DNA from: a virus
Reading direction: 5' to 3' (one strand)
DNA length: 56,865 nucleotides
Virus record (IMG/VR): IMGVR_UViG_3300045107_000127
Span: 1-56,865 of that record
Below are positions 12,820 through 43,552 of the stretch, one piece after another (position 1 is the stretch's first letter; each line of letters starts with the position of its first letter). Both the position numbers and the translations under genes were made by a program. Below the pieces are notes generated by a model that made no database searches, was not told the DNA's origin, and was given only the letters and a program-made list of their open reading frames with translations.

Positions 12820-14265
12820 TTACACAACGAAGTTGGCAATCGACATTCTTGCGTAGAATTTTGCCCCTTCACGCAGCAACTTCTTGCCGTACCGGGTGAG
12901 GATACCCTTCCGAGGGCAGAAGCTTTCCGGGTCGAGAACGACCGGGGTTTGCGTAAGAGGAACATACGGGCAGTAGAAGTAGCCGCTATCCATGTAGCTG
13001 TCGCCCTTGTAACCCATGAGGATTTGGCCCGTCGGGAACAGCGGGTCTTTGTACAGACGCCAACGGTTGTTCACGGTGCCGACGTACTGGACGCCGAGGC
13101 TGCTCGTGAAGGTGTCCGAAGGAGCCGGTGCGAAACCAGCGGTTGCCGTTTCGAAGACGGACGCAACTTCCGGGGAAGTCACGAGCCAGTTGCACCCGCC
13201 ACGGAGGGTCTTACGGTGAACGACGTTGGAAACTTCCACAACCTTGACGTACAGCGACTCGTACTTTTCCTTGATCGTGTCGCCGAGTGCGGTGTTGAAG
13301 TCCCACACTGCAATCGTACCGGCGTTGTTACGCAAGTCGGTGAGGACTTCACGGTCGATTTCAAGGTTAATTTCTTGAGCCAGGACGCTCGTCAACTCAG
13401 CTTCGGCGTCCAGGTTGTGCTGGGAACGCAGGTCTTGCTGAGCCTCGTAGCTCCACACAGCCTTCAACTTACGGGTCTTGGCTGCGATTTCTTCCGACTC
13501 AACGACGAGGTTGACTTCAGGAAGGTCTTGGTTGCACTCCATGTTGTACTCGTAGGAGGCAACGAAGTGGTTGTCACCAGGATCGCCGCCGGTCCATTGC
13601 AGAACAACTTCGCCGGTGTTCAGGTCGATGGACGAACCGCTCGACTGAGCCTTGACGGTCGGGGTGCCGATGTCCGTGAAGGTGAACACGCCAGACGTGG
13701 ACACAATGAAGGTCTGGATTGCGGTGCTGCCGTCGTACACGGTGCCGGTGAACGCACCCGGAAGAACCGGAGTGTGTTCCAGCGGTGCGTACACTGCTGC
13801 TACGCTGCTACCACCCGGATGCGTCGAAGAAACTTCGTTCTGTACGAACTGGTGGGTGTAGTAGATTTCCAGGTTGCCGTCACCGGAAGCCAACTGTTGC
13901 AGCGATGCTGCGTCGTCGCTCGGGTAGCCGCCCTGGAGGCTTGCGCCACGCATGCCGCCCTTGTTGGACGAGTAGCGGAAGCGGAGGTAGTACACAAGAC
14001 CCGTCGGGCCGAGAAGCGGCTGAACCGACACAATCTTGTTCGCAATCAACTGCGGGTAGATACGGCGAACCAGCGGAATGCTAATACGCTTGAAGCTGGC
14101 AATGTCGCCCGTATCCGTCATCGCTTCATTCATCAACCACTGGTTTTCCAGAAGAACAGCAGTGGCGGAACGAGTGAAGCGGTCTTCAATCTTGTTGAGA
14201 AGCTTAGTCTTGGCCCACTTTTGTTCGATGGCCTTAGCTTCGTTCAAGAATCGGGAATTCATCAT
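12820..14265 (-). CDS. 23: Major capsid protein, T4 gp23-like
   Basis: 481-residue shell protein of the head. Diagnostic regions are ISIPLVRRIYPQLIANKIVS and VQPLLGPTGLVYYLRFRYSS (residues 61-100), as in gp23 near its post-cleavage N-terminus, then EINLEIDREVLTDL (298-311), WDFNTALGDT (321-330) and MDSGYFYCPYVPLTQTP (425-441), matching gp23 MDAGIYYAPYVALTP. The gp21-like protease probably removes the first about 40 residues, where LLE occurs at 38-40. The gene follows scaffold and protease in T4 order and has its own terminator. Two separate gene fragments at 40188 and 43313 resemble its C-terminal half. Confidence 0.95.
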   Translation of the reverse strand: MMNSRFLNEAKAIEQKWAKTKLLNKIEDRFTRSATAVLLENQWLMNEAMTDTGDIASFKRISIPLVRRIYPQLIANKIVSVQPLLGPTGLVYYLRFRYSSNKGGMRGASLQGGYPSDDAASLQQLASGDGNLEIYYTHQFVQNEVSSTHPGGSSVAAVYAPLEHTPVLPGAFTGTVYDGSTAIQTFIVSTSGVFTFTDIGTPTVKAQSSGSSIDLNTGEVVLQWTGGDPGDNHFVASYEYNMECNQDLPEVNLVVESEEIAAKTRKLKAVWSYEAQQDLRSQHNLDAEAELTSVLAQEINLEIDREVLTDLRNNAGTIAVWDFNTALGDTIKEKYESLYVKVVEVSNVVHRKTLRGGCNWLVTSPEVASVFETATAGFAPAPSDTFTSSLGVQYVGTVNNRWRLYKDPLFPTGQILMGYKGDSYMDSGYFYCPYVPLTQTPVVLDPESFCPRKGILTRYGKKLLREGAKFYARMSIANFVV

Positions 14266-15245: not shown

Positions 15246-15911
15246 TTATTCAGCAACCTTTGAGTTCACGATCCCACCGAGGGCTGCGATCAACGTCTCT
15301 TTGATTACGGTGGTATCTATGCGACTGCTCTCATTTTTCACAGTCACATTCTTAGCAATTTCCTTCGTTTCACGGCTTTCGTTCCGACGGCCCGATACAA
15401 CCTTCTCTTGGAAGGCATCGAACGTGGAAGGATCAGCAACAGCGTCAAAGGTAATAAGCTTGTAGCCTTCACCAATAACGAGTACGCCGTCCTCGTTTAC
15501 CTTCCCGTTGCCTACGCCACGGGAGCTAATACCCACCTTCACGCCGTCCTCAAGGAGTGCCTTAAGAACCTTGCCGCTGGGGGTGTTCAGGATTTCGCCC
15601 TCACCCATCAGGATGTTGCCCTCCCACCACAGTTTCGTAACAAGGTGAGATGCGTTGGCGAAGTGTACGATAGAGTCCGTCGGGTGATCCAATTCACCGA
15701 TGAGACGACGGTCCTTGATAGCTGCCTGAAGACCGTGAACGTTCTCGTCCAACACGTCGAATGGGTAGCTACGCTTGTTCTTGTTGACGGCTTCCGCTTC
15801 TTGGAACTTACCACGGAAGATGGTCTTACCGTTGCGCACGGTAGTTGATTCATTAAGATTGAGAGTAACCCCGCCGTGGTCACAGCAATCGATCAGCAAA
15901 ATCTTGTCCAT
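15246..15911 (-). CDS. 21: Prohead core protease, T4 gp21-like
   Basis: 221-residue serine protease (S78/herpes-assemblin-like fold) that cleaves head proteins during maturation. The catalytic His is in RLIGELDHP (residues 69-77) and the nucleophile Ser in VGISSRGVGNG (126-136). Between them is HFANASHLVTKLWWEGNILM, also typical of gp21. The tail of about 40 residues is polar and probably self-cleaved. RBS AAAGAGG precedes ATG 15911. The known specificity of gp21, (L/I)xE, fits sites seen in several tagged proteins of this window. Confidence 0.95.
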   Translation of the reverse strand: MDKILLIDCCDHGGVTLNLNESTTVRNGKTIFRGKFQEAEAVNKNKRSYPFDVLDENVHGLQAAIKDRRLIGELDHPTDSIVHFANASHLVTKLWWEGNILMGEGEILNTPSGKVLKALLEDGVKVGISSRGVGNGKVNEDGVLVIGEGYKLITFDAVADPSTFDAFQEKVVSGRRNESRETKEIAKNVTVKNESSRIDTTVIKETLIAALGGIVNSKVAE

Positions 15912-18313: not shown

Positions 18314-20890
18314 TTACATCTCCGAGTTGTCGATCTCTTCTTCGTCCTGCTCCGACCCGTAATCCTTGATCTCCAGGTCGTACTTGGCGATGTCGTCCAA
18401 CGCCGGTTGGGGGAGCGGCTGACCGCCACCCACAGGCGGGGTTTCCGCCGCCATGCTCATCCCAGGCATACCGCCACCCGGAGGCGGCGGGGCCGCACCA
18501 GGAGCGCCACCCATCGGGGCACCACCCGGAGCCGGTGGCATACCGCCCGGAGGGGCACCGCCACCAGCCATCGGGTCGCCGCCCAACATCGGCTGGCCCA
18601 ACCCGGCCTCGGCACCGACCTGTTGTTCGTCATCCGACGGTAGACCAACACCCAACAACTGCGGGTTCTGGGCGATGATCTGCAACTTCAGGTCTTCGAT
18701 CTTCTGAATCTTCAGCCGGGCCAGCATGATCTTGGCCTCGTCGTCCGGGTACTTCATCCACTTCGTCAGGATGTCGAAGTCGCTCATCAACTGAGAACCC
18801 TTCAACGACCCGGCGTTACCGATGCGAGCCGTAACAACCTCGGACCGGGTGAGTTCCCGCCAATCGCTCGGCGGGGTCATCTTGATCTCAAGGTCTTCGT
18901 ACATCTCCTCGGGATACCCACGGAGCTTCAGGTGGCGGTCACACAGTTCCCACAGCCCGTCTTCCATGTGGCTCTGAAGCCGCTCGATCATCCGGGCGAA
19001 CTTCACGTCCTGGGCGGACAGGCTGATTCTGGTCGCCTGGGCGTCCTCGTTGTTGAAGTAGTTCTTCGGGAAGTTCATCGACACGAACAGCTTGTTACGG
19101 AAGTAGACCGTATCGTCGATTTCGCCCAAGTTCTGTGCCCCTGGGAGGGTTTCGATACGGGTGTTCGAGTTCGGCCGGATCGGAATCCAGTAGTCCTCGT
19201 CCGCAGCCGGTGCGTGCCACCGTTCTTCAACCGCACTCGCCCCTTCGGCGTTGAACTGCTTCGGAACCTTCTTCTTCTTGAACTGATCCTTCATCCGCTC
19301 GATGAAGGCTTCGGCACGGGCACCGCTGTACTGTTGTGTATCAATATAGAACACACGCCGTTCTGGGGCACGGGTCAACCGATACACCAACATGGCGTCT
19401 TCCATCAGCCGCAACTGGTGGGCCGGGCCACGGGCGGCTTCGATCAGTGAAACACCATACGGGTAGAACGTCTTCCGGTCGTCGCCGATACGGATGTGGA
19501 CGATCTGCTGAGGCGCAAACCGGATGGCCTTCGCCTGCATCAAGTCCAGGTCAGTCGCTTTCGTAACCTCGACACGGGCCAGCGAATCGTAGTCCGGGCC
19601 TTCTTTAGACTGCTGGAACTCGACCAGCCGCCCCTTCGTGGTTTCAATACGGTACATCGTGTCCGGCGGGAGCGGGACGATGTTAACGATGCCCCGAGAC
19701 GGGTTCTCCGGGTCGATCACGACTTCCCAGAAGTCGTCGCCGTTGATGAACAACTGCTTCGCCCGGTTCCAGCACTTCTTCTGATCCAGGTTCAGCATCT
19801 TGCGGTGGAAGCACAGGAACTCCAGTTCTTCTTGAATGTCCTGGTTCTTGCAAACGATCTGGAACGCCCGGCCGCTGTCGTCCTTCTGGCAGTTGTGGGC
19901 TACACCCCAATCCGTGCAGAAGTTCTCGTGCTTCTCAACCGACAGGTCGTACACCTTCTGGACGCCGTTCGGGGCAACCCCGATCACCCGCCGAGCCGGT
20001 TCCTTCTTCGCCAGTTGTTTGAGTTCAGCGTTACTAAACCCGCACTTCTCCATGTGCCGTTTGATCGTGTCGAAGTCGCCGTGCCCGCCGCCGTAGATTT
20101 GACGGACGGTCAAGCCCTCGCACAGCATTCGGCAGAACTTGTTACCCTTCTCGTAGAACGGGTCGTCCCGGCCGGTCTTCCATTCGTCCACGAACTGCCG
20201 CTCGTTGATCCACCCCTTGCGGTTGGTGAAGATTCGGGGGAACTGGCGGACCTTCGGCTGATCCTCGCCGACCCGAGGGTTCACCCGGTAGAACGGCATC
20301 AGCAGGTCGCCTTCCTTCAGTTCGCCTGCGTTCCGCCACTTCTGATCCTTAGTCAAGATACGGTGGTCACGGGTGGCGACGAACGAGCTACCGTCGTCGA
20401 GCATGACCCGGACGGTTTCCTCTTCCTTAACGAGCCGGGGGTCGTAGGCCCAGCCCAACGTGTAGTCTTCTTTTGCGAAGTCCCAGCAATATACCAGGAA
20501 GCGTTCGCCCTTCTTGTTCTCTGCGAGCCATTCGAGAGTGCGAAACCCCCCGTCGTATGCCGGGGTAGCGATCTTAGTATCGCCCGCCAGACACGCCTCG
20601 TCGGCGAAGACGGTCATCGCCATCTCGATCTCGGGCATGTTTCGCAACCGCTCGTACTCTTTATAACGGTGGAGGCGGTTCGTGACCGTGGACAGGTCAA
20701 CCATCTCGTTCGTGTCACGAAGGCGAACGGACCCACGGCCACCCAGCGTGCCGTCGGCCATCGCCCGCACGTCGGGCATGGCGTCCGGTTGTGAAACACC
20801 GGCGTTCGGGAAGTCCCGCCCGTCTTTCTGGGCGAGCGGGTCGTTCTGGAACGCCCGTGTAAAAAGCTTGAAGAAATCGTACCAAGCCAT
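18314..20890 (-). CDS. 20: Portal protein (T4 gp20-like) interrupted by an intein
   Basis: 858-residue precursor. Removing residues 100-333 leaves a 624-residue portal, the dodecameric channel through which DNA enters the head. Portal-like parts are VDLSTVTNRLHRYKEYERLR and NMPEIEMAMTVFADEA before the intein and CQKDDSGRAFQIVC, LFVSMNFPKNYFNNEDAQAT and a helical C-domain after it. The last 120 residues are Gly/Pro/Met-rich, then acidic. Its place beside terminase and upstream of protease, scaffold and capsid genes is as in T4. RBS AGGAG precedes ATG 20890. The 20911 repeat element lies just upstream. Confidence 0.92.
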   Translation of the reverse strand: MAWYDFFKLFTRAFQNDPLAQKDGRDFPNAGVSQPDAMPDVRAMADGTLGGRGSVRLRDTNEMVDLSTVTNRLHRYKEYERLRNMPEIEMAMTVFADEACLAGDTKIATPAYDGGFRTLEWLAENKKGERFLVYCWDFAKEDYTLGWAYDPRLVKEEETVRVMLDDGSSFVATRDHRILTKDQKWRNAGELKEGDLLMPFYRVNPRVGEDQPKVRQFPRIFTNRKGWINERQFVDEWKTGRDDPFYEKGNKFCRMLCEGLTVRQIYGGGHGDFDTIKRHMEKCGFSNAELKQLAKKEPARRVIGVAPNGVQKVYDLSVEKHENFCTDWGVAHNCQKDDSGRAFQIVCKNQDIQEELEFLCFHRKMLNLDQKKCWNRAKQLFINGDDFWEVVIDPENPSRGIVNIVPLPPDTMYRIETTKGRLVEFQQSKEGPDYDSLARVEVTKATDLDLMQAKAIRFAPQQIVHIRIGDDRKTFYPYGVSLIEAARGPAHQLRLMEDAMLVYRLTRAPERRVFYIDTQQYSGARAEAFIERMKDQFKKKKVPKQFNAEGASAVEERWHAPAADEDYWIPIRPNSNTRIETLPGAQNLGEIDDTVYFRNKLFVSMNFPKNYFNNEDAQATRISLSAQDVKFARMIERLQSHMEDGLWELCDRHLKLRGYPEEMYEDLEIKMTPPSDWRELTRSEVVTARIGNAGSLKGSQLMSDFDILTKWMKYPDDEAKIMLARLKIQKIEDLKLQIIAQNPQLLGVGLPSDDEQQVGAEAGLGQPMLGGDPMAGGGAPPGGMPPAPGGAPMGGAPGAAPPPPGGGMPGMSMAAETPPVGGGQPLPQPALDDIAKYDLEIKDYGSEQDEEEIDNSEM
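19892..20593 (-). other. Intein inserted in the portal protein
   Basis: Residues 100-333 (234 aa) carry protein-splicing blocks: block A CLAGDTKIATP with nucleophile Cys100; block B SSFVATRDHRILT with the T-x-x-H at 173-176; block F VYDLSVEKHENFC; block G VAHN ending in Asn333; and Cys334 as the first C-extein residue. Splicing would join ADEA to CQKDDSG. About 105 central residues (200-305) have no LAGLIDADG or HNH motif; they contain LTVRQIYGGGHGDFDTIKRH, which looks like a helix-turn-helix. The homing domain is therefore lost or of an unfamiliar type. Confidence 0.92.
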
Positions 20891-22350: not shown

Positions 22351-24144
22351 TTACCACCCGAATTCCTTGAACAGCGTGTCGAACGGCCGTTTGTATTCTT
22401 TCTTCACGGCCTCGTCCACTTCCACGTCGAACTCGTCCTTGTACAAGTCCTGCGGACTTAACCAAGTTTCCGGTGCCCCTCTTTCGAGTTCTTTCTTGAT
22501 TTCCTCGTACACCTTCGCCTTGAACGTCTCGGTCAACTCCTCCGGCATGCCGTCGCCGACAATCGGGGCGGACCGGCCGGAGATTTCCCGGATGTACAGG
22601 GCGAAACACAGGCTCATGATCGAGTCGTCGTGGTAGCCCTTCGGTGCCTCGGCCTTCTTCGTCGCCTTGTTGAAGATGAAGTGCTTCAACTCGTACACCG
22701 TCCGGCGGCTGCGGAGGATGATGGACTTCATCAACAACCGGGTCTGGAGGGTTTCCAGCAGCATCGGCCGACTGTTCTTGGTCGTCTTCAGCCCGGCTTG
22801 GTGGTTCTCGTCGTAGTACAGGTTCTCGTAGTCCAGGTCGTGTTCGAGCTTACTCAACACGGTCAGGCCGCACTTTTCCTTTTCGACCACGCACAGGGCG
22901 GTGTTGTACATGATCCCGACCTGGGCCACGATCTGCGAGAAGATGTGCAGCGGACAGTTGTTGCTGTAGAACTGAGCGCACTGCTCGCCCGTGTTGGCGT
23001 CGATAACCTCAATCGTGGAGTTGTCGCCGTCGTCGCCGACGCCTTCGGCGGCGTCCACGCCCATGATGTACTCCCGGCCTTCAATCGGTTCCCGCCAGAC
23101 CAACATGGCGGCTTTGTCCGCTCGGGCCTGGAACTTGGTCGCCTTGTTCGCCCAATCCTCGAACAGATAGCGGACGGGTTCGATCTCCCGGACCGCCAAG
23201 TCCAGGTCGTTCAGGATGTTGGACGGGATGAACGTGTCACCACCACCGAGGAAGTCGCCCAAGACTTCCTGGGCGAAGCCCTTCTCGCCAAGCTGCGAGC
23301 GGATGACCTTCACCCACTCGTCGTCGTTGTATTCCGGGTGTTGCTTGTAATCCAACTGGATGATGTTGAAGTCGTTCTCGCCCCGCTCGGCTTGGTGGTA
23401 CATTTCCTCGTACCAGTTGCCGACGCCGTTCACCGTGGAGACGACGATAACGCTACCACCCGTGCTAATCGTCGGGAACACGTCGTTCCAGAACTTGTGC
23501 ATGTTCGGGATGAACGCCGCCTCGTCGATGATGAGGTAGGAGATAGCACGACCACGGGCAGCTTCCGGGGTGTAGAAGAACAGCTTGCAGCCCGTGTCGT
23601 TGAAAATCTTCTGGTGGTCGTTGTTCTTCTCCATCACCGGGGCCATCCAACTCGGTAGCTCCTCGATGGCCCGCTTCACGATTTCACCGGCGGCGATGGC
23701 CTCACGGTCGGTCTTCGACACGACCATGATCGTTTCGTCCATCTTGAACAAACACCGCCAGAGTGCCCAGATGGTCGTGACCGTAGTCAGACCGCCCTGC
23801 CGGAACTTACGGATGATGTTGAAGCGGTGTTCGTCGTACTTGCGGATTGCGTAACGCTGGTAGGCGTAGGTGATGAAGGGCAGAAGACCCTTCTTCGGGT
23901 GGGCGATCTTAACGTACTTGTGGCAGAAGTAGTTGAACGAGAGGGCGCAACGTTTGATCTCTAGCTGCTGCCGCTTCTCGTCGTAAGCCTCGATGGAGTC
24001 TTCCGTCTCCATCGGGTCGATGGTGTACTCGAACTTCTCAAACTCGTAGTAGTCGTCCGGGTAGTTGTCTTTGTAAAACGCCTCCAGAGAGTCGTACTTG
24101 CCCCTCCAGTTCGGGTCTACAGCATCTTGCGGTTTGTATGGCAT
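22351..24144 (-). CDS. 17: Terminase large subunit, T4 gp17-like
   Basis: 597-residue DNA packaging motor. The ATPase half has Walker A-like IIRKFRQGGLTT (110-121), Walker B SYLIIDEAAF (202-211) and the coupling motif STVNGVGNWYE (236-246). The nuclease half has the RNase-H-like acidic residues in MGVDAAEGVGDDGDNS and, near the end, GYHDDSIMSLCFALY. Length is close to T4 gp17. RBS AAGGA precedes ATG 24144. The 24175 conserved element is just upstream. A partial paralogue lies at 8731..9480. Confidence 0.96.
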   Translation of the reverse strand: MPYKPQDAVDPNWRGKYDSLEAFYKDNYPDDYYEFEKFEYTIDPMETEDSIEAYDEKRQQLEIKRCALSFNYFCHKYVKIAHPKKGLLPFITYAYQRYAIRKYDEHRFNIIRKFRQGGLTTVTTIWALWRCLFKMDETIMVVSKTDREAIAAGEIVKRAIEELPSWMAPVMEKNNDHQKIFNDTGCKLFFYTPEAARGRAISYLIIDEAAFIPNMHKFWNDVFPTISTGGSVIVVSTVNGVGNWYEEMYHQAERGENDFNIIQLDYKQHPEYNDDEWVKVIRSQLGEKGFAQEVLGDFLGGGDTFIPSNILNDLDLAVREIEPVRYLFEDWANKATKFQARADKAAMLVWREPIEGREYIMGVDAAEGVGDDGDNSTIEVIDANTGEQCAQFYSNNCPLHIFSQIVAQVGIMYNTALCVVEKEKCGLTVLSKLEHDLDYENLYYDENHQAGLKTTKNSRPMLLETLQTRLLMKSIILRSRRTVYELKHFIFNKATKKAEAPKGYHDDSIMSLCFALYIREISGRSAPIVGDGMPEELTETFKAKVYEEIKKELERGAPETWLSPQDLYKDEFDVEVDEAVKKEYKRPFDTLFKEFGW

Positions 24145-35640: not shown

Positions 35641-36102
35641 ATGGAAATCACCGCCAAGACAGTCGAGAGGCTGCAATACTTCAAGGGCAAGGTCTGCACC
35701 ATCCTGACCAGCCCCATCAACCGTGAGTTCAACGAGACGTTCGCCCGAGAACACTTCGTTGTGGAAGTTCAGGAAATCGGCCGTGAGTGCATCTGGGGGA
35801 CGCACCCCTACAACGGGACCGTCGCCTTCTTCCCGATGCAGAGCGTCATCAGCATCCAAGAGGAGATCGTGCTGGACCCGGTGAACAACCCCGAACACCG
35901 AAAGATGATCGAGGAGTACGAGAAGAAGTCCGGCAAGAAGGTCGTCAGCGACGTGAGTCCGCACCTTGCCCCGACCACCGCCACGCCCCCGGCCGTAAAA
36001 GAAGAAACGCCGCCCCAGCAAGAGGCGGCGTTCGTTGATATTCGGCGTCTGACGCAGTTGGCGAAGCAATCGAAAGAAGGCTTCGACAACAAGAAGCGTT
36101 AG
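35641..36102 (+). CDS. Hypothetical protein
   Basis: 153 residues with GAGGATC before ATG 35641. The N-terminal 85 residues look folded (YFKGKVCTILTSPINREFNE, GTVAFFPMQSVISIQEEIVL) like a small barrel. The C-terminal part is Pro/Thr-rich and charged. No family recognised. It converges on the 36099 frameshift ORF with a 4-base overlap. Confidence 0.7.
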   Translation: MEITAKTVERLQYFKGKVCTILTSPINREFNETFAREHFVVEVQEIGRECIWGTHPYNGTVAFFPMQSVISIQEEIVLDPVNNPEHRKMIEEYEKKSGKKVVSDVSPHLAPTTATPPAVKEETPPQQEAAFVDIRRLTQLAKQSKEGFDNKKR

Positions 36103-36377
36103 TCTTCACCCCAGGCGTCGTCGTCGTGATCGTCGGCGAACCGATTCTTCTTCGCCTTCCGAGCCGCAGAGACTTTAGCCAGGGCACGTCTGACCAGTTT
36201 GTCGGGCGTGCCCGTCATCTCCTGGTCGAGCATGTCTTGCAGGTAGTCTCTGAACTTTTCGCCCCAGCGGCTACCCAGCACCACATCGACCTTGCCGAGC
36301 AAGTCTTCGTCGCTCACGTTATCGATCACTGCGTCCACGCTGTCGGGGGCGACATACTCGTCTCCGGCGTCAATTAC
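36099..36377 (-). CDS. C-terminal extension made by probable -1 frameshift
   Basis: 92 codons open in the -1 frame from the end of the 36374..38968 gene to TAA 36099. It has no good start of its own; the only candidate is a GTG at 36338 without ribosome-binding site. The product (VIDAGDEYVAPDSVDAVIDN, then LGSRWGEKFRDYLQDMLDQE, and an acidic end) looks like a real folded peptide. A slippery A AAA AAG lies exactly where the frames meet. Translation as an extension of the large protein explains the missing start. Confidence 0.65.
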   Translation of the reverse strand, partial: VIDAGDEYVAPDSVDAVIDNVSDEDLLGKVDVVLGSRWGEKFRDYLQDMLDQEMTGTPDKLVRRALAKVSAARKAKKNRFADDHDDDAWGED

Positions 36378-38968
36378 TTTTTTTTTACGTCGCCCTCGCC
36401 GTCCTTCTTCTTCTCTTCCGGCTTCGGAGCTTCCTTCTTCTCTTCCGGCTTCTTCTCCTCGCCCTTCTTAGCCTCTGGCTTCGGGGCTTCCTTTGGAGCC
36501 TCCTTCGGAGTTTCCTTCGGGGCTTCGGTCGGCTTCTCTACGCCGACTTCCGCACCCTTAATCTTGAGTGCCAGTTGTTCCGGCGACATGCCTTCCAGTT
36601 CTTCAATCGAACCCAGGCCGTCCTTCGCCATAGCGTTACGGATGGCCGTCAGCCGGATCGAAACCGGGTAGTGTGCGTTGCCCGCAGCCTTCGGGTTCTT
36701 AGCAGCGAGGTACGCTTCCAACGCCTTCTGGGCATTCGGGTCTTCCGACATCTTCATGCCGCCAGCCTTCGGGGCTTCTGGCTTACCGGCTTCCGGCTTG
36801 GCTTCAGGAGCAACCTTCGGTGCTTCTGGCTTACCGGCTTCCGGCTTGGCTTCAGGAGCAACCTTGCCAGCCTCGGGAGCAGCGGTCGGGGCTTCAGACC
36901 CCGGACGCTTTGCCGGAGGCGTGGACGACGGAGTTGCATCAACCCCGGCGAACGCCAGCACTTCCGGTGGGAACGGAACCTTGTCCTTCGTGTTGCGAAC
37001 AGCCGCCTTCACCAGTTCAACGATCTTGTCCGGCGTCAACGGGTCGTTCTTCAACAAGGACAGGCTGACGGCCCGCTGTGCGAGCGGCGGCAGGTACTTG
37101 GTGAAGAAGTCGTCGTTCTCGTCCATGTCGGCGAAGACTTCGAGCGGCGAACCCGGCTTGGCGTTCGTGACGCTTGCCACCACCGCCTTCACAGCAGTCG
37201 TCGGATCAACTTCTTTGCCGTTCACGTTGACGGTTTGTGTACCGCTGCCAGTCACGTCGGTGTTGGCATCGCCCTTAATCTTCGACGCACCCGCCCCTGG
37301 GGCCGTGCCGCTAACCGGGGCTGGCGGCTGACCCGGCTTACGGGTATCCATCGGTGCCGTACCCGGAAGCGGCGGCTTCGGGAGCGGCGAACCTGCTGCT
37401 GGCTTAGAGCCAGCAGGCGGCGGCGTGCTTGCGGCCGGAGGCGTGGTGCCGGTAGCGGCAGCGGCCTTACCCTTGATCTTGTCAAAGATGCCAGCCATGT
37501 CTACCTTCGCCCGCTTGTCCTCGTTACGCATCAGGTCGATGATCTCGTCGGACAGGTCAACCGGCTGACCGGCGTTCTTCTTCTGCATGGCGTTGTACAC
37601 GGCCTGCTTCAGAATATCCATAGCCGGGATGGCCCGACTACGCCACTTCTTAGCGGTGCCGCCGAACCGACTCCAGTCGTCGTTCGGAGTGTCGCTGGCG
37701 ATGCCAGCGATCAGTTTCTTAATCATCGGCCGGGCACGGATAGCGGCCCCGCTGTCCACGCTCGTCAGTGCGGCCTGGAGAGCCTTCAGGAACGAGTTGT
37801 TCAACCGATGCCCGCCGAGGATGGACTTCAGGAACTTCACCCGTTCTGCGAGCGGGTCTGCACCTTCAGCCGCACCAGCCTTAGCAGCTTCGGGGTCAAC
37901 GCCCGTAGCGGCTGCAACTTTCTCAGGCGGCAATGCCTTCTCGGCCGGAGCTTCCGGCTTGACCGCATCAGCGGCACCGGCCGGGCCGGTCGGGGTCACT
38001 TCAGGCGTGCCAGTCGGGCCGGTCGGCTTCGGCATCGCACCGAGGGCCGCAGCGTACTTGTCGATCTGGTCGCTGATGTATTTCTCAAGAGTTGCCGTCA
38101 ACTCGTCAACGTCCTTCATCAGCTTCTCAAGCTGCTCGTTAGCGGCCTCTTCCAACAGGAGGGCCATCGCATTGACGACGTTTTCGGGCAGGCTGTCGCC
38201 TCTCCACGCACTACGGATTTTGTTAGCAGCCCAATGGAGCGGGGTGCGAACGAGGTTCGCCACGCCCTTCAGGCCACGGCTCAGGAGGTTGCCCTTAGAC
38301 GTATCGAAACGCCGCCACGGCCAGCCTCCCTTCTTGGGTGCCGGTGCGGCTGCGGATGTCGGGGCTTCTTCTTCAGAACCCGGTGCCGGGGCAGACGGTG
38401 GAGTCGAGGCGGAACCGGCAGGTTTGAACCCTGCCCCCGCCAACCCAGCGGCGGTTGCCGGTTTCGGCATACCACTCGGACCTGGGGGTGTAATACCAGC
38501 CGACCCGCCCTCGTCTCCGCTGTGAGAATGAGGAGGAGGACTTAAAGACGAATCCGCTGACGGATCGGCTGATGTACGAGATGTATTGATGATCTTGGCG
38601 ATCTGAACCTTAACCTGCTTGGAGAATTGGTTCAGTGCATTGACGAGGTTCTTCTTCAACGCAGTTGCGTCGAACGCCCCGCCCGTGCTGGTCGCCTCGA
38701 TAATGTAGTTATGGAAGTTCTTTTTGCAGTAGTCGATGTAGGCTTCGAGGAAGATTTTGTTTTGACGCTCGTCTTCCCGCAGAACCGATTCCATTACGAA
38801 ATGTGCCAGCGGGTCGTAGTGTTCAGTAAGAACGACGTTGAGCCGTGCGGACTCGGACAGATCGACCTTGAACTGGTCGAACATGTGGTCGATTGCTTCC
38901 AGTACCGAAGACTCGGCAATGGCGGATTGCCGCCGAGTCTTTCGGAAATCGTCAAAACTCAATAGCAT
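36374..38968 (-). CDS. Large low-complexity protein with capsid-targeting-like tag
   Basis: 864 residues from ATG 38968 (MLLSFDDFRKTRRQSAIAE), with GAGAGGGG upstream; an ORF start at 39019 lacks an RBS. The N-terminus resembles phage head-packaging tags and includes IAE, a possible gp21-type cleavage site. The chain alternates helical blocks with long Pro/Ala/Glu/Lys-rich linkers, including two copies of EAGKPEAPKVAPEAKP. It is likely an internal head or core protein given the tag, size and composition. No enzyme motif is visible. A -1 shift at its end would add 92 residues. Confidence 0.7.
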   Translation of the reverse strand: MLLSFDDFRKTRRQSAIAESSVLEAIDHMFDQFKVDLSESARLNVVLTEHYDPLAHFVMESVLREDERQNKIFLEAYIDYCKKNFHNYIIEATSTGGAFDATALKKNLVNALNQFSKQVKVQIAKIINTSRTSADPSADSSLSPPPHSHSGDEGGSAGITPPGPSGMPKPATAAGLAGAGFKPAGSASTPPSAPAPGSEEEAPTSAAAPAPKKGGWPWRRFDTSKGNLLSRGLKGVANLVRTPLHWAANKIRSAWRGDSLPENVVNAMALLLEEAANEQLEKLMKDVDELTATLEKYISDQIDKYAAALGAMPKPTGPTGTPEVTPTGPAGAADAVKPEAPAEKALPPEKVAAATGVDPEAAKAGAAEGADPLAERVKFLKSILGGHRLNNSFLKALQAALTSVDSGAAIRARPMIKKLIAGIASDTPNDDWSRFGGTAKKWRSRAIPAMDILKQAVYNAMQKKNAGQPVDLSDEIIDLMRNEDKRAKVDMAGIFDKIKGKAAAATGTTPPAASTPPPAGSKPAAGSPLPKPPLPGTAPMDTRKPGQPPAPVSGTAPGAGASKIKGDANTDVTGSGTQTVNVNGKEVDPTTAVKAVVASVTNAKPGSPLEVFADMDENDDFFTKYLPPLAQRAVSLSLLKNDPLTPDKIVELVKAAVRNTKDKVPFPPEVLAFAGVDATPSSTPPAKRPGSEAPTAAPEAGKVAPEAKPEAGKPEAPKVAPEAKPEAGKPEAPKAGGMKMSEDPNAQKALEAYLAAKNPKAAGNAHYPVSIRLTAIRNAMAKDGLGSIEELEGMSPEQLALKIKGAEVGVEKPTEAPKETPKEAPKEAPKPEAKKGEEKKPEEKKEAPKPEEKKKDGEGDVKKK
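36377..36387 (-). promoter_or_regulatory. Slippery site A AAA AAG for -1 frameshifting
   Basis: The gene ends GTA AAA AAA AAG TAA. A AAA AAG is the dnaX-type slippery heptamer, and a Shine-Dalgarno-like GAGGG lies about 10 bases upstream, where dnaX has its stimulator. The stop follows at once in frame 0, and the -1 frame is open for 92 codons. Confidence 0.6.
36774..36865. repeat. Two perfect 44-bp direct repeats (period 48)
   Basis: Copies at 36774-36817 and 36822-36865 are identical and encode the Glu/Ala/Pro/Lys linker of the large protein. Identical codons imply a recent duplication, unlike the varied poly-Asp repeats. Confidence 0.9.
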
Positions 38969-39015: not shown

Positions 39016-39516
39016 TCACTCGTCGGGTAGATATTCCCCAATCTTCTTCAATGCCATGAGGTTGCTGTCGTAGGTCTGGAACTGGCTCGGCAGATACTCG
39101 TAGCTCAGCCGCTTGAAGTCCTCGCCCCGACCAGCCGGATGCTCGAAGTAAACGTGCTTACCACGCTTCCCGATCACCTTCAGGCCCATCGCATTCGGCC
39201 GGTACTCGTGCATTAGCAAGTACGCAGCCACACCCAGGTCACTGACGACCTTGTGGATGGAATCGTCCAGTTGAGCAGGGACTTGCTCGTTGATCTTCTT
39301 CAAGAACATCAGACAGCTATCAAACGTGTAGAACTCGTTTGGCGGCTGATATTCGAGAACCATCTTATCGAACTCCTGGGCCTCTTCTTCGTTATGACAC
39401 TCGAAGAAGATCGACTTAGCCTTCTTCCCGATCACGGTGTACCCGTGCATCAGCAGGTAGGCGGCAACGCCCAAGTCGTTCACGAACTTGTGGATAAAGG
39501 TACGTTCTTCAACCAT
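39016..39516 (-). CDS. Tandem DUF5659-like protein
   Basis: 166 residues made of two copies of one about 70-residue domain: IHKFVNDLGVAAYLLMHGY ... KKAKSIFFE ... FDSCLMFLKKI and IHKVVSDLGVAAYLLMHEY ... KRGKHVYFE ... YDSNLMALKKI. The DLGVAAYLL opening is like the DUF5659 family of small phage and bacterial proteins with no known role. The duplication is internal and old (about half the residues differ). Confidence 0.7.
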   Translation of the reverse strand: MVEERTFIHKFVNDLGVAAYLLMHGYTVIGKKAKSIFFECHNEEEAQEFDKMVLEYQPPNEFYTFDSCLMFLKKINEQVPAQLDDSIHKVVSDLGVAAYLLMHEYRPNAMGLKVIGKRGKHVYFEHPAGRGEDFKRLSYEYLPSQFQTYDSNLMALKKIGEYLPDE

Positions 39517-40187: not shown

Positions 40188-40652
40188 TCAGATGACAAAG
40201 TTAGCCACGGTCATTGCGGCGTAGCTCTTTTCGTCGCCCTCGTGCATCTTGTGTTCGCCACACCCGATCAAAACCTTGTTGCCGTCGAGCGACGGGTCAA
40301 CGTAGATGCTCCACCGGCGTTGCATGACCCCGAGCTTGTAAACCTTCTTGGTGCCCAACTCGATCTGTTCCGCACTGGTCGGGTAGAAGCCCATCGTCGC
40401 AACCTCGAAGATCGAGGCGACTTCCGGCGAGGCACAAATCCAGAACAACCCGCTCGCCCCCTTACGAATCAGGACGTTGGTGACTTCCACAACCTTGATG
40501 TACAGGGATTCGTACTTCTCACGGATCGTGTCGCCCAGGGCCGTGTTGAAATCCCAGGCACATCGGGTGCCCGCCGCCTCCAGCATCTTGACCACTTCGT
40601 CGTGATCCAAGAAACTCTCTTCCATATCGATTCCAAACATGTTAGCTGCCAT
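40188..40652 (-). CDS. Capsid protein C-terminal paralogue (fragment)
   Basis: 154 residues that match residues about 320-420 and 470-481 of the major capsid protein: WDFNTALGDTIREKYESLYI versus WDFNTALGDTIKEKYESLYV, then SPEVASIFEVATMGF and RRWSIYVDP, and the ending YAAMTVANFVI (capsid: YARMSIANFVV). The capsid segment around YFYCPY (420-467) is cleanly missing, while a 19-residue version of it occurs in the separate gene at 43313. The N-terminal 32 residues differ. It may be a minor head protein, a competitor of the capsid protein, or a recombination remnant; the frame is intact with a good RBS (AAAGGA). Confidence 0.8.
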   Translation of the reverse strand: MAANMFGIDMEESFLDHDEVVKMLEAAGTRCAWDFNTALGDTIREKYESLYIKVVEVTNVLIRKGASGLFWICASPEVASIFEVATMGFYPTSAEQIELGTKKVYKLGVMQRRWSIYVDPSLDGNKVLIGCGEHKMHEGDEKSYAAMTVANFVI

Positions 40653-40661
40653 TGTTTCCTT

Positions 40662-41078
40662 TCATTCAGGCAAGTAGATGATGACCATCTCCACGTTCCC
40701 GCCGCTGATTCCTACGGCGGCGTTACAGTCTTTGGTCTTGCTCAAGATGTCCGCAACCGACTCGTAGGAGTGGTGGAGTTCACGCCGACCGTTGAGGTTG
40801 GTTACGATGATCTCGGATTTGTTCGTGATCTTAACGTTGTGACAGGACTGGTCCGTACACACCATCAGCATCAACCCGTCGGCGTCCAGGCGGTGAGTGC
40901 TGATGTGGCCCATCACCGTCCTGTTGCCCTTCAACTCGGGCGGGGCTGTCGGGGCGGGTTGGTTCATCGGCTGGCCGACGGGTGGAACCACCCGCCAGAC
41001 CATACAACTGAGCATCACCGCCACGCCGACAACGAAACAGAAGATCGGGACGAGGCACGCCATCTGACGGTTAGACAT
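40662..41078 (-). CDS. Membrane-anchored hypothetical protein
   Basis: 138 residues. One N-terminal membrane helix (CLVPIFCFVVGVAVMLSCMV) precedes a periplasmic or outer domain with a Pro linker and a beta-rich part (LDADGLMLMVCTDQSCHNVK). The ending VGISGGNVEMVIIYLPE resembles a small folded domain. No family recognised. It overlaps the actin-like gene by 8 bases, so the two may work together at the membrane. Confidence 0.7.
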   Translation of the reverse strand: MSNRQMACLVPIFCFVVGVAVMLSCMVWRVVPPVGQPMNQPAPTAPPELKGNRTVMGHISTHRLDADGLMLMVCTDQSCHNVKITNKSEIIVTNLNGRRELHHSYESVADILSKTKDCNAAVGISGGNVEMVIIYLPE

Positions 41079-42081
41079 TGGCGTTCTCCGCTGCTACGAG
41101 GCAGCCACGGGCCACACTGTACAGCGGGTCGGCCGGGCGGATGACCTTGCCAATCTTGATCGGCAGTTCGGCCTCACGCAGCACCGTCTCGAACAGCTTG
41201 TCGAAGCCCGGAGGACTCGACGTGCCACCGGCGATCACCACGTCAACGGCCTCGGCGGTGTTACCCTTCTTGCTGTCTTCCAGACCCTTCTTGATCCCGG
41301 CGACGGTCTTCTCGATCATGAGCTTGTACTGAGTGCCGATGGCCCGCTCGGTGTTGTTCGTCGGCTCTTTGCCCAGGTCAATCTTCGTCTTCTCCTTGTT
41401 GACGAACGCCACGCTCTCGCCGAGAGCCTTAGCGGCCTGCTTGTCGATCCAGTCGCCCGAGTTGACCAGCGAGAACTGGAACACCGGGGCGGCGAAGATC
41501 GAGTAACACAGGTTGACCATACCGGCCCCGAAGCTGATGCCGATGCCCGTGAACGCCTTGTTCGCCAACTCGGCGTAGATCAGGGCGAGGGCTTCGTTGA
41601 TCGGGTGGGCGTTGACGATGTACCCATTCTTGCTCTTGTACGCCTTGAAGATGGCGTCGAGAATCTTGCGGTGGTAGTCAGCGTCCGTCTCTGTGTTCAC
41701 GGCGTTGGCCGGGACGGAGTAGTACAGGGTCGTCTTGTCTTCCGCAACGTCCCCGATCAGGCTGTGGGCCATGATGTTCAAGATTTGAAAAGCGTCACGC
41801 TCCTTCGGGTTGACACAGCCGTCCTTCATCGGGCGGCGAAGCTCGATCTGGGGCATCGTGTAAGCCATCTCGACAGCGGCCTCACCGATGGCGTAGGCGA
41901 CGTTCGCATCTTCCCGGAGGATCAGCGGCACGCCTGCCTTCTTCATCATGTTGTAGACGAACTTGTTCTCAAGAGGCATTTCCAAGAAGGCGTTAACCTC
42001 CCGGCGGTAAAGGAAGTCTCCCTTATCGTTGCGGTGGCAGCACACCAAGTTGTAGGTTCCGGCGTCGAATCCAATAGCCAT
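41071..42081 (-). CDS. Actin-like / Hsp70-fold ATPase
   Basis: 336 residues from ATG 42081 (MAIGFDAGTYNLVCCHRNDK), with GGAG 8 bases upstream; the GTG at 42090 is poor. The actin-ATPase nucleotide motifs are in order: phosphate-1 GFDAGTYNLV at 4-13, phosphate-2 GISFGAGMVNLCYS, and adenosine VVIAGGTSSPPGF near the end. ParM, MreB and archaeal actins share this plan. It may form filaments that position DNA or virions in the cell. The preceding small gene at 42087 and the membrane-protein gene at 40662 may be partners. Confidence 0.8.
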   Translation of the reverse strand: MAIGFDAGTYNLVCCHRNDKGDFLYRREVNAFLEMPLENKFVYNMMKKAGVPLILREDANVAYAIGEAAVEMAYTMPQIELRRPMKDGCVNPKERDAFQILNIMAHSLIGDVAEDKTTLYYSVPANAVNTETDADYHRKILDAIFKAYKSKNGYIVNAHPINEALALIYAELANKAFTGIGISFGAGMVNLCYSIFAAPVFQFSLVNSGDWIDKQAAKALGESVAFVNKEKTKIDLGKEPTNNTERAIGTQYKLMIEKTVAGIKKGLEDSKKGNTAEAVDVVIAGGTSSPPGFDKLFETVLREAELPIKIGKVIRPADPLYSVARGCLVAAENANV

Positions 42082-42086
42082 TTCTT

Positions 42087-42329
42087 TCACTCCACTTGTT
42101 TACCAAAGTCCAGCTTCATACCCGATACGAAATCCGGGACCGTAAGTTCGACATCATCGTCTTCCTGAATCGGCCGGGCTTTCATAGGCTTCTCTCCCTG
42201 AGCTTGCAGTGACGCACCGATCTCACCGTTGGCGGTCAAATTGATGTTCAACTCCAACGTGATCGTCAGATGGCACTCGCCATTCTGGCTCACGGACATG
42301 ACCTTCACGGGTGTAATACGCTGAGGCAT
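42087..42329 (-). CDS. Small protein beside the actin-like gene
   Basis: 80 residues with a strand-rich N-part (RITPVKVMSVSQNGECHLTI) and an acidic end (IQEDDDVELTVPDFVSGMKL). No family recognised. It lies 5 bases before the actin-like start, so it could be its regulator or adaptor, as small genes often are for ParM-type systems. The ATG is 4 bases after TAAATA with no Shine-Dalgarno. Confidence 0.65.
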   Translation of the reverse strand: MPQRITPVKVMSVSQNGECHLTITLELNINLTANGEIGASLQAQGEKPMKARPIQEDDDVELTVPDFVSGMKLDFGKQVE

Positions 42330-42332
42330 GTC

Positions 42333-43313
42333 TTATTTAGATGAGTGTTTCGCAAACATTTTGTCAGTTGCCTTCAGAATCATGTCCGAAGTGATCTCGG
42401 TCAGGCACGGCTTCGGGTTTGCCTTCGTCTTCGTGCAACGGCCCCAATCGTAACACGGCCCGCAGTCCCAATCCCCGTCGTCCCGGTGCCGTTGAACCAA
42501 CTCGAACCCCTTGTAATACCGCCCGTACACCTTCCCGTCGGCGAAAGTAAAGATGCCCGTCAGCGGCTTCCCCATCCCGCCTGCACAGTGGAACGCCGCC
42601 GTGTCCACGCTCACGACGTAATCCGCCGCCGCAATCACGCTCATCCACTGCCGAACCGAGAGCTTGTAGATACACGGGGCGTTTAACTTGGTGAAGTGCA
42701 TGAGCGGGTTGTAGTGCAGTCCGATCACACAATTCCCCCGCTCCCAAAGCCCCTTCACCGTCCCCTCCGTCTGGTGGTAGAGCAGGTTCTTGTTCTCCAT
42801 CGCACTCACCGGCGACATCAGGACAATCGGCCCCGGCCGGTCCCGGTTCTCCTCCAACTTCGCTCGCCCCCAGGCGACTTCCTCGGCCGTCATGCGTATG
42901 TGCATGTTGTGGTTCGTCAGGTGAACCCCGCAGTGTTGCGCCCAGATGTCGCTCCGGTGCAAGCCGGAATAGGGGAACATACGGAGTTCGTACCGGCCAC
43001 AGGCGGTGGTGGTGTTGTACGAGACGATGTACTGAAACCGATCCACCGTCGCCGAGTCCAGTACCTTGTCCACGAACGGGTGGTCAGTCACGGCGTCGTG
43101 GTACTGACGGGGGCAAGCGAAGTGAATCTTGGCGTCGGGCATGACCCGCTTGAAATCTTCGAACATCATCCGGTGCATGAAGATGTCGCCCAACCCGCCG
43201 ACGTTCCGCTGAATCAGCACTTGGTTACGCTTCTCGGCGAAGTCGCCCAGGGACATGATTCGCTGGAGCTTGTCGGGCCTGCGGTTCTCTACCCGTCGGG
43301 TAACAATCTTCAT
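42333..43313 (-). CDS. GT9-like (heptosyltransferase-type) glycosyltransferase
   Basis: 326 residues with a GT-B plan typical of ADP-heptose transferases: an N-terminal RNVGGLGDIFMHRMMFEDFK (glycine-rich loop), PDAKIHFACPRQYHDAV, then the C-domain IAAADYVVSVDTAAFHCAGG and MGKPLTGIFTF. Substrate is unknown. A Cys-rich tail (CGPCYDWGRCTKTK) is also seen in a relaxed form in the gene at 45343. The end overlaps the 43313 gene start region by one base. Confidence 0.75.
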   Translation of the reverse strand: MKIVTRRVENRRPDKLQRIMSLGDFAEKRNQVLIQRNVGGLGDIFMHRMMFEDFKRVMPDAKIHFACPRQYHDAVTDHPFVDKVLDSATVDRFQYIVSYNTTTACGRYELRMFPYSGLHRSDIWAQHCGVHLTNHNMHIRMTAEEVAWGRAKLEENRDRPGPIVLMSPVSAMENKNLLYHQTEGTVKGLWERGNCVIGLHYNPLMHFTKLNAPCIYKLSVRQWMSVIAAADYVVSVDTAAFHCAGGMGKPLTGIFTFADGKVYGRYYKGFELVQRHRDDGDWDCGPCYDWGRCTKTKANPKPCLTEITSDMILKATDKMFAKHSSK

Positions 43314-43552
43314 CAGAATCCTTCCTTTAGCCAGTCAAAGTCGATGGGCAGACTGCCACCCATGTAGAACACGGAGGCCGGATCGAAGTACGGGTCGTAG
43401 TCGTCCTCGTCGTACCGCCACCGCTCATGACCGTTCACGATGTCGTTAATGGTTCTGGCGTCATCCTGTGGGAACTCCGTCCCCTCCGGCGCAAGAACCG
43501 TGGGTGAATCTTGCAACGGGATGTACGGGCAGTAAAAGTAACCGGCGTTCAT
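43313..43552 (-). CDS. Mini-gene with a capsid-protein segment
   Basis: 79 residues. Residues 2-20 (NAGYFYCPYIPLQDSPTVL) match the capsid protein segment MDSGYFYCPYVPLTQTPVVL, which the other paralogue at 40188 lacks. The rest is acidic (WRYDEDDYDPYFDPASVFYM) and unrelated. The ATG follows TTTTATA by 4 bases, directly after a terminator. This is the same arrangement as at 11219..11509. It may be a product of recombination, or a small binding peptide that mimics a capsid contact. Confidence 0.65.
   Translation of the reverse strand: MNAGYFYCPYIPLQDSPTVLAPEGTEFPQDDARTINDIVNGHERWRYDEDDYDPYFDPASVFYMGGSLPIDFDWLKEGF

Follow-up and report, generated by a model that had tools for sequence, protein, structure and literature searches.

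In a huge T4-type phage, slippage on nine consecutive A's (A9) probably gives rise to a long protein in two sizes, a reading that we draw from sequence comparison and that spans two possible mechanisms. The gene concerned, which we call BIG, ends at a stop codon directly behind the A-run, and the -1 frame that opens there, which we call EXT, very probably represents the native C-terminus of the same gene, now cut off by the run. We regard BIG/EXT as a promising candidate for recoding of a known kind, set in an unusual phage. Genes of this sort are split by gene callers, and where nine A's stand immediately ahead of a stop, the next frame is worth inspecting.

Genome setting and anatomy of the site

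The window, by which we mean the whole 56,865-nt stretch of DNA analyzed here (positions 1 to 56,865 of IMG/VR record IMGVR_UViG_3300045107_000127), is part of a huge T4-type phage. Positions 1026-56863 match a 245-kb IMG/VR record, IMGVR_UViG_3300045256_000050 (G001), with four mismatches and one 3-nt gap, and the window shares synteny with LR756511, an uncultured phage of 595 kb, the two capsid proteins being 75% identical. It encodes the major capsid protein (12820-14265), a gp21-type prohead protease (15246-15911), the portal (18314-20890), the large terminase (22351-24144), and, on the minus strand, a Volactin-family (actin-like) gene (41071..42090; Pfam PF25216, E = 3.6e-68), which we used as bait for related loci.

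BIG lies on the minus strand (38968..36374). Its zero-frame ORF, with GAGAGGGGAAACGTT upstream of the start codon, runs from an ATG at 38968 to a TAA at 36376-36374 and encodes 864 aa, laid out as a helical N-terminal domain followed by linkers and repeats rich in Pro, Ala, Lys, and Glu. Two neighboring genes serve as landmarks conserved in relatives: a 166-aa gene upstream of BIG on the same strand (39016..39516) and a convergent 153-aa gene on the plus strand (35641..36102), whose TAG (36100-36102) overlaps the TAA of EXT by 4 nt. The 166-aa protein carries two copies of a ~75-aa domain, found as a single copy in LR756511 and several relatives, and has a weak HicA-like score.

Read on the minus strand, BIG ends GGC GAG GGC GAC GTA AAA AAA AAG TAA. 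The nine A's (36378-36386) form the candidate slippage site. Starting within the run is the heptamer A_AAA_AAG (36383-36377), in the correct zero-frame phase (phase 2 of the codon) and with the TAA immediately 3' of it, while GAGGG (36397-36393), a possible Shine-Dalgarno-like stimulator, is placed 9 nt 5' of the heptamer. EXT (36377..36099, minus strand) reads GTA ATT GAC and onward for 92 codons to a TAA at 36101-36099, and A9 sits exactly at the junction of the two frames. The original prediction had described this gene end, with its dnaX-type heptamer, and a -1 frame open for 92 codons to 36099; the sequence confirms both, and the frame of the heptamer is right.

Reality and rarity of the A-run

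A9 is present in both of the non-identical assemblies, the window record and G001; a different run length, which had been named as grounds for doubting a frameshift, does not occur in the second assembly. No other A/T run in the window reaches 8, and the 245 kb of G001, where A/T runs of at least 9 are expected ~0.04 (order-2 model) to 0.7 (order-5 model) times, add just one, a T10. BIG also has the only in-frame A_AAA_AAG/A stretch among 145 long genes. Lysine is encoded by AAG in 84% of cases in this phage genome, and AAA-AAA accounts for 2 of 290 Lys-Lys pairs. The T10 (G001:192212-192221, locus L088), which is outside the window, falls within a 337-aa ORF and keeps its frame; slippage on it would shorten the protein, which is also its effect in Thermus dnaX.

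A rare homopolymer at the end of an ORF may also be read as a plain indel. BIG would then normally be one ORF (with A10, for example), and A9 would be a recent or segregating mutation, part of a mixture akin to phase variation, or a counting error common to the two records, with nothing programmed about it. We consider this possible but doubtful. Homopolymers mutate easily, an in-frame A10 inside the BIG homolog of relative L033 shows that the gene can acquire such runs, and the two assemblies, with just five differing sites between them, may share a source. The occurrence of A9 in both records speaks against it, as does the absence of other frame-broken genes at the 82 places in G001 that were testable against relatives, by which measure the assembly does not look prone to indels. 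Moreover, an A9 born by mutation would still slip somewhat, so this reading partly merges with the slippage explanation that we prefer.

Coding status of EXT

EXT is a real coding sequence. Under a codon score trained on the codon usage of long G001 genes, it reaches 0.43 bits/codon (mean for random in-frame stretches of real genes, 0.41), and none of 3000 pieces from either shifted frame scores as high; it is this match in codon usage to known phage genes, together with the failure of off-frame pieces to reach its score, that establishes EXT as coding. A simple coding-potential gene call recovers it with 32 bits, and a stretch of 91 codons without a stop has a probability of 0.034 given the local composition. 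That EXT is still fully coding is also what a recent mutation would leave behind, in line with a plain indel.

The starts available near the 5' end of EXT are GTGs at 36338, 36329, and 36317, with ATGs (36233 and 36218) roughly halfway in. None of the starts within the 5' third (the GTGs and one TTG) has a Shine-Dalgarno site, in agreement with the earlier view that EXT lacks a convincing start codon. We find it improbable that EXT is a separate small gene, re-initiated at GTG 36338 (79 aa) once BIG has terminated. This reading draws on the distribution of the coding signal, with 1.2 bits in the 13 codons before this GTG and 34.7 bits in the 79 after it. Against it stand the missing Shine-Dalgarno sites, the exact abutment of an open -1 frame at A9, which would be a coincidence, and the lack of such a gene in every relative where BIG extends straight to the convergent gene; a homolog in which EXT is a separate gene with its own start, the case that could have overturned the frameshift, was not seen among the relatives found.

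BIG in relatives

Pattern searches and tblastn for homologs of BIG and EXT across IMG/VR and annotated phages returned the same virus only; BIG evolves fast. Related loci were therefore sought through the neighboring Volactin gene, a route that gave 69 loci in which the syntenic BIG gene was then located by position. The N-terminal 135 aa are alignable in 14 relatives, and the remainder is repetitive and divergent.

In relatives with both neighbors side by side, the BIG gene is one ORF of ~280-1506 aa (stop to stop), and its stop lies 0-46 nt from that of the convergent gene. The set comprises L012, L017, L023, L033, L037, L038, L042, L052, L053, L062, L067, L070, L094, L096, L098, L099, and LR756511, some of them near each other, which makes ~15 distinct relatives; loci with extra genes in between or running off the contig were left out. 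In the window, the zero-frame stop falls 272 nt short of the convergent-gene landmark, and only the stop of EXT reaches it, with a 4-nt stop overlap that recurs in L033, L037, L053, L062, and L097. Because the single ORFs of the relatives end at a landmark that only EXT reaches in the window, we take EXT, with considerable confidence, as the native C-terminus of BIG.

This case is positional. A phmmer comparison of EXT with the C-termini of the relatives gave no sequence similarity, and a helix motif of those C-termini, which by eye seemed to recur in EXT, was set aside because it did not outscore shuffled EXT (p = 0.15) or random proteome pieces (p = 0.21). We likewise discarded a -1 frame overlap in L019, L020, L028, and L075 as a second frameshift, as the overlapping frame turned out to be a normal gene that starts at an ATG of its own.

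The single ORFs of the relatives bear on the mechanism as well. The original prediction had proposed to look for conservation of the slippery site and the frame relation in homologs, and this conservation is not supported, with ~15 distinct relatives carrying one ORF and no frameshift at this place. Single ORFs are also what a plain indel in the present phage would predict. No fused version of the junction was found by pattern search in IMG/VR, and a scan of a genome collection added one more relative with the same neighbors, which has no close copy of the site. Since IMG/VR, annotated phages, and the genome collection yielded no close relative covering A9, an A10-to-A9 indel retains some probability.

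A-runs occur inside the BIG homologs of L033 (A10, L033:16303-16312) and L070 (A8, L070:11532-11539), in frame in both, and each is the only A/T run of at least 8 in its fetched locus (21 kb in L033). One added A would end the L033 homolog ~440 aa early. The BIG gene is lysine-rich, so these runs may be chance occurrences. It is rather far-fetched, if conceivable, that A-tracts in the BIG family form a recurrent length switch that would lengthen the product here and shorten it in L033 (A10). An equally speculative corollary is that, in such a switch, RNA-polymerase slippage, and not a conserved ribosomal signal, would set the ratio of the two forms.

Mechanism of the proposed slippage on nine A's

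We infer that slippage occurs at A9 and that the long form is both made and used. Most ribosomes would stop at the zero-frame TAA and release the 864-aa protein, while a fraction of the products would run on into EXT and reach 956 aa, with the junction ...GDVKKK-VIDAG.... In the transcriptional route, RNA polymerase would add an A on A9 and the resulting A10 mRNA would be read into the EXT frame; in the ribosomal route, the ribosome would slip by -1 on A_AAA_AAG. Both routes would give an identical protein.

We lean slightly toward transcriptional slippage, since it explains the A's beyond six plus G and ribosomal slippage does not. Slippage by RNA polymerase, which the original prediction did not consider, fits the nine A's at least as well as the dnaX-type reading. 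Bacterial RNA polymerase is described as slipping very efficiently on nine A's or T's (PMC5009743, PMC1088944), and a 2018 study of the E. coli enzyme found slippage on poly(A) to be weak and much below that on poly(T) (PMC6260861). On the ribosomal side, few -1 heptamers are as efficient in E. coli as A_AAA_AAG, which shifts at ~0.3% when stimulators are lacking (PMC4066793), and ribosome sliding on A9 is small in vitro (PMC4363877).

Ribosomal frameshifting of the dnaX type, with a Shine-Dalgarno-like stimulator, is a sub-case of the slippage explanation, and its probability is contained in, not added to, that of slippage as a whole; taken by itself, we judge it somewhat unlikely. The site has the correct heptamer, in the correct phase and directly 5' of the zero-frame stop, with GAGGG 9 nt upstream, and phage structural genes with dual products by -1 frameshifting are known, T3/T7 gene 10 among them (PMC5009743). 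Yet there is no 3' structure: no hairpin was found at the site, shuffled sequence folds better than the 3' region in a pseudoknot-free model (z = +1.27), and a single-strand fold of a wider stretch around the site gains nothing over shuffled controls (z = 0.17). Of the final 90 BIG codons, 37% have a Shine-Dalgarno-like core at a similar distance, which puts GAGGG at chance level. Such heptamers shift at only ~0.3% in E. coli when no stimulator assists (PMC4066793), and the three A's in excess of what the heptamer needs are left unexplained. For the programmed -1 frameshift as first proposed, the heptamer, its phase, and the coding EXT stand, while a conserved site and a 3' hairpin were not found; as to the proposed stimulator, which in the dnaX type is placed 10-14 nt from the site, GAGGG is indeed present 9 nt upstream, but in a purine-rich tail where such cores stand at 37% of positions.

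Known systems resemble BIG in different respects. Very similar in its anatomy is tssM1 of Citrobacter rodentium (PMC4256274), likewise one ORF in relatives but broken by a premature stop 3' of an A-run, where experiment has shown that slippage restores the full-length protein and that both lengths are made, whereas the proposal for BIG comes from its sequence; tssM1 is a bacterial secretion gene with an A11 located 28 nt before the stop, whereas BIG has an A9 directly before it. The dnaX gene of Thermus thermophilus (PMC1088944, PMC5009743) shares with BIG a sense-strand A9 near the 3' end of the gene, but there the zero frame encodes the long form and slippage yields a shorter one, whereas slippage would lengthen BIG. 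Escherichia coli dnaX has the same heptamer, A_AAA_AAG, and a Shine-Dalgarno-like sequence ~10 nt upstream; there, however, the shift makes the shorter product, and BIG has no 3' hairpin and a Shine-Dalgarno-like core not above chance. Gene 10 of phages T3/T7 (10A/10B; PMC5009743) yields a protein both with and without a C-terminal extension, by a -1 shift near the zero-frame stop, as proposed for BIG, but on another slippery sequence and in the major capsid protein, whereas BIG has no family match.

What BIG might be

BIG had been labeled a head-type protein. Searches of Pfam and PHROG gave no significant match and placed it in no structural family, fold searches with the N-terminal domain and EXT returned no match at E < 0.001 (the predicted models being modest, with mean pLDDT of 72 and 62, respectively), and an N-terminal profile found no convincing match in the PDB.

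Some weak hints point toward the label, namely the start motif of BIG, an N-terminal tag, and the gp21-type protease of the phage. The conserved start of BIG, M-x-S-F-x-x-Y-R-K, is reminiscent of the short N-terminal peptides that target T4 internal proteins to the capsid. The concept of such targeting is described in PMC3012670. An N-terminal F..[FYW] tag is present in 11 of 256 G001 proteins, against 3.1 expected, and BIG shows no homology to T4 internal proteins. A fair guess is that BIG may be an internal head protein. In G001 as a whole, a motif of F/Y-x-x-aromatic-aliphatic/R is ~3.6 times commoner at N-termini, that of BIG included, than inside proteins; MRFKTWLENEE and MRFRDFIEQDD are examples, and the motif may be a capsid-targeting tag.

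Other features of the region

In relatives L070 (4604-6730) and L116 (5369-7486), the Volactin gene carries an in-frame insert of ~370 aa whose ends are intein-like (GIGVS|CLCPGTKIY ... LTIHN|CGAGMVN). Stand-alone fragments of the major capsid protein gene are also present, two on the minus strand of the window (40188-40652 and 43313-43552) and one elsewhere in the genome (G001:81335-81520). One fragment gene, of 154 aa, matches the middle of Gp23 (PF07068), the others being smaller, and includes an 84-nt stretch that is 84.5% identical to the capsid gene of the phage itself.
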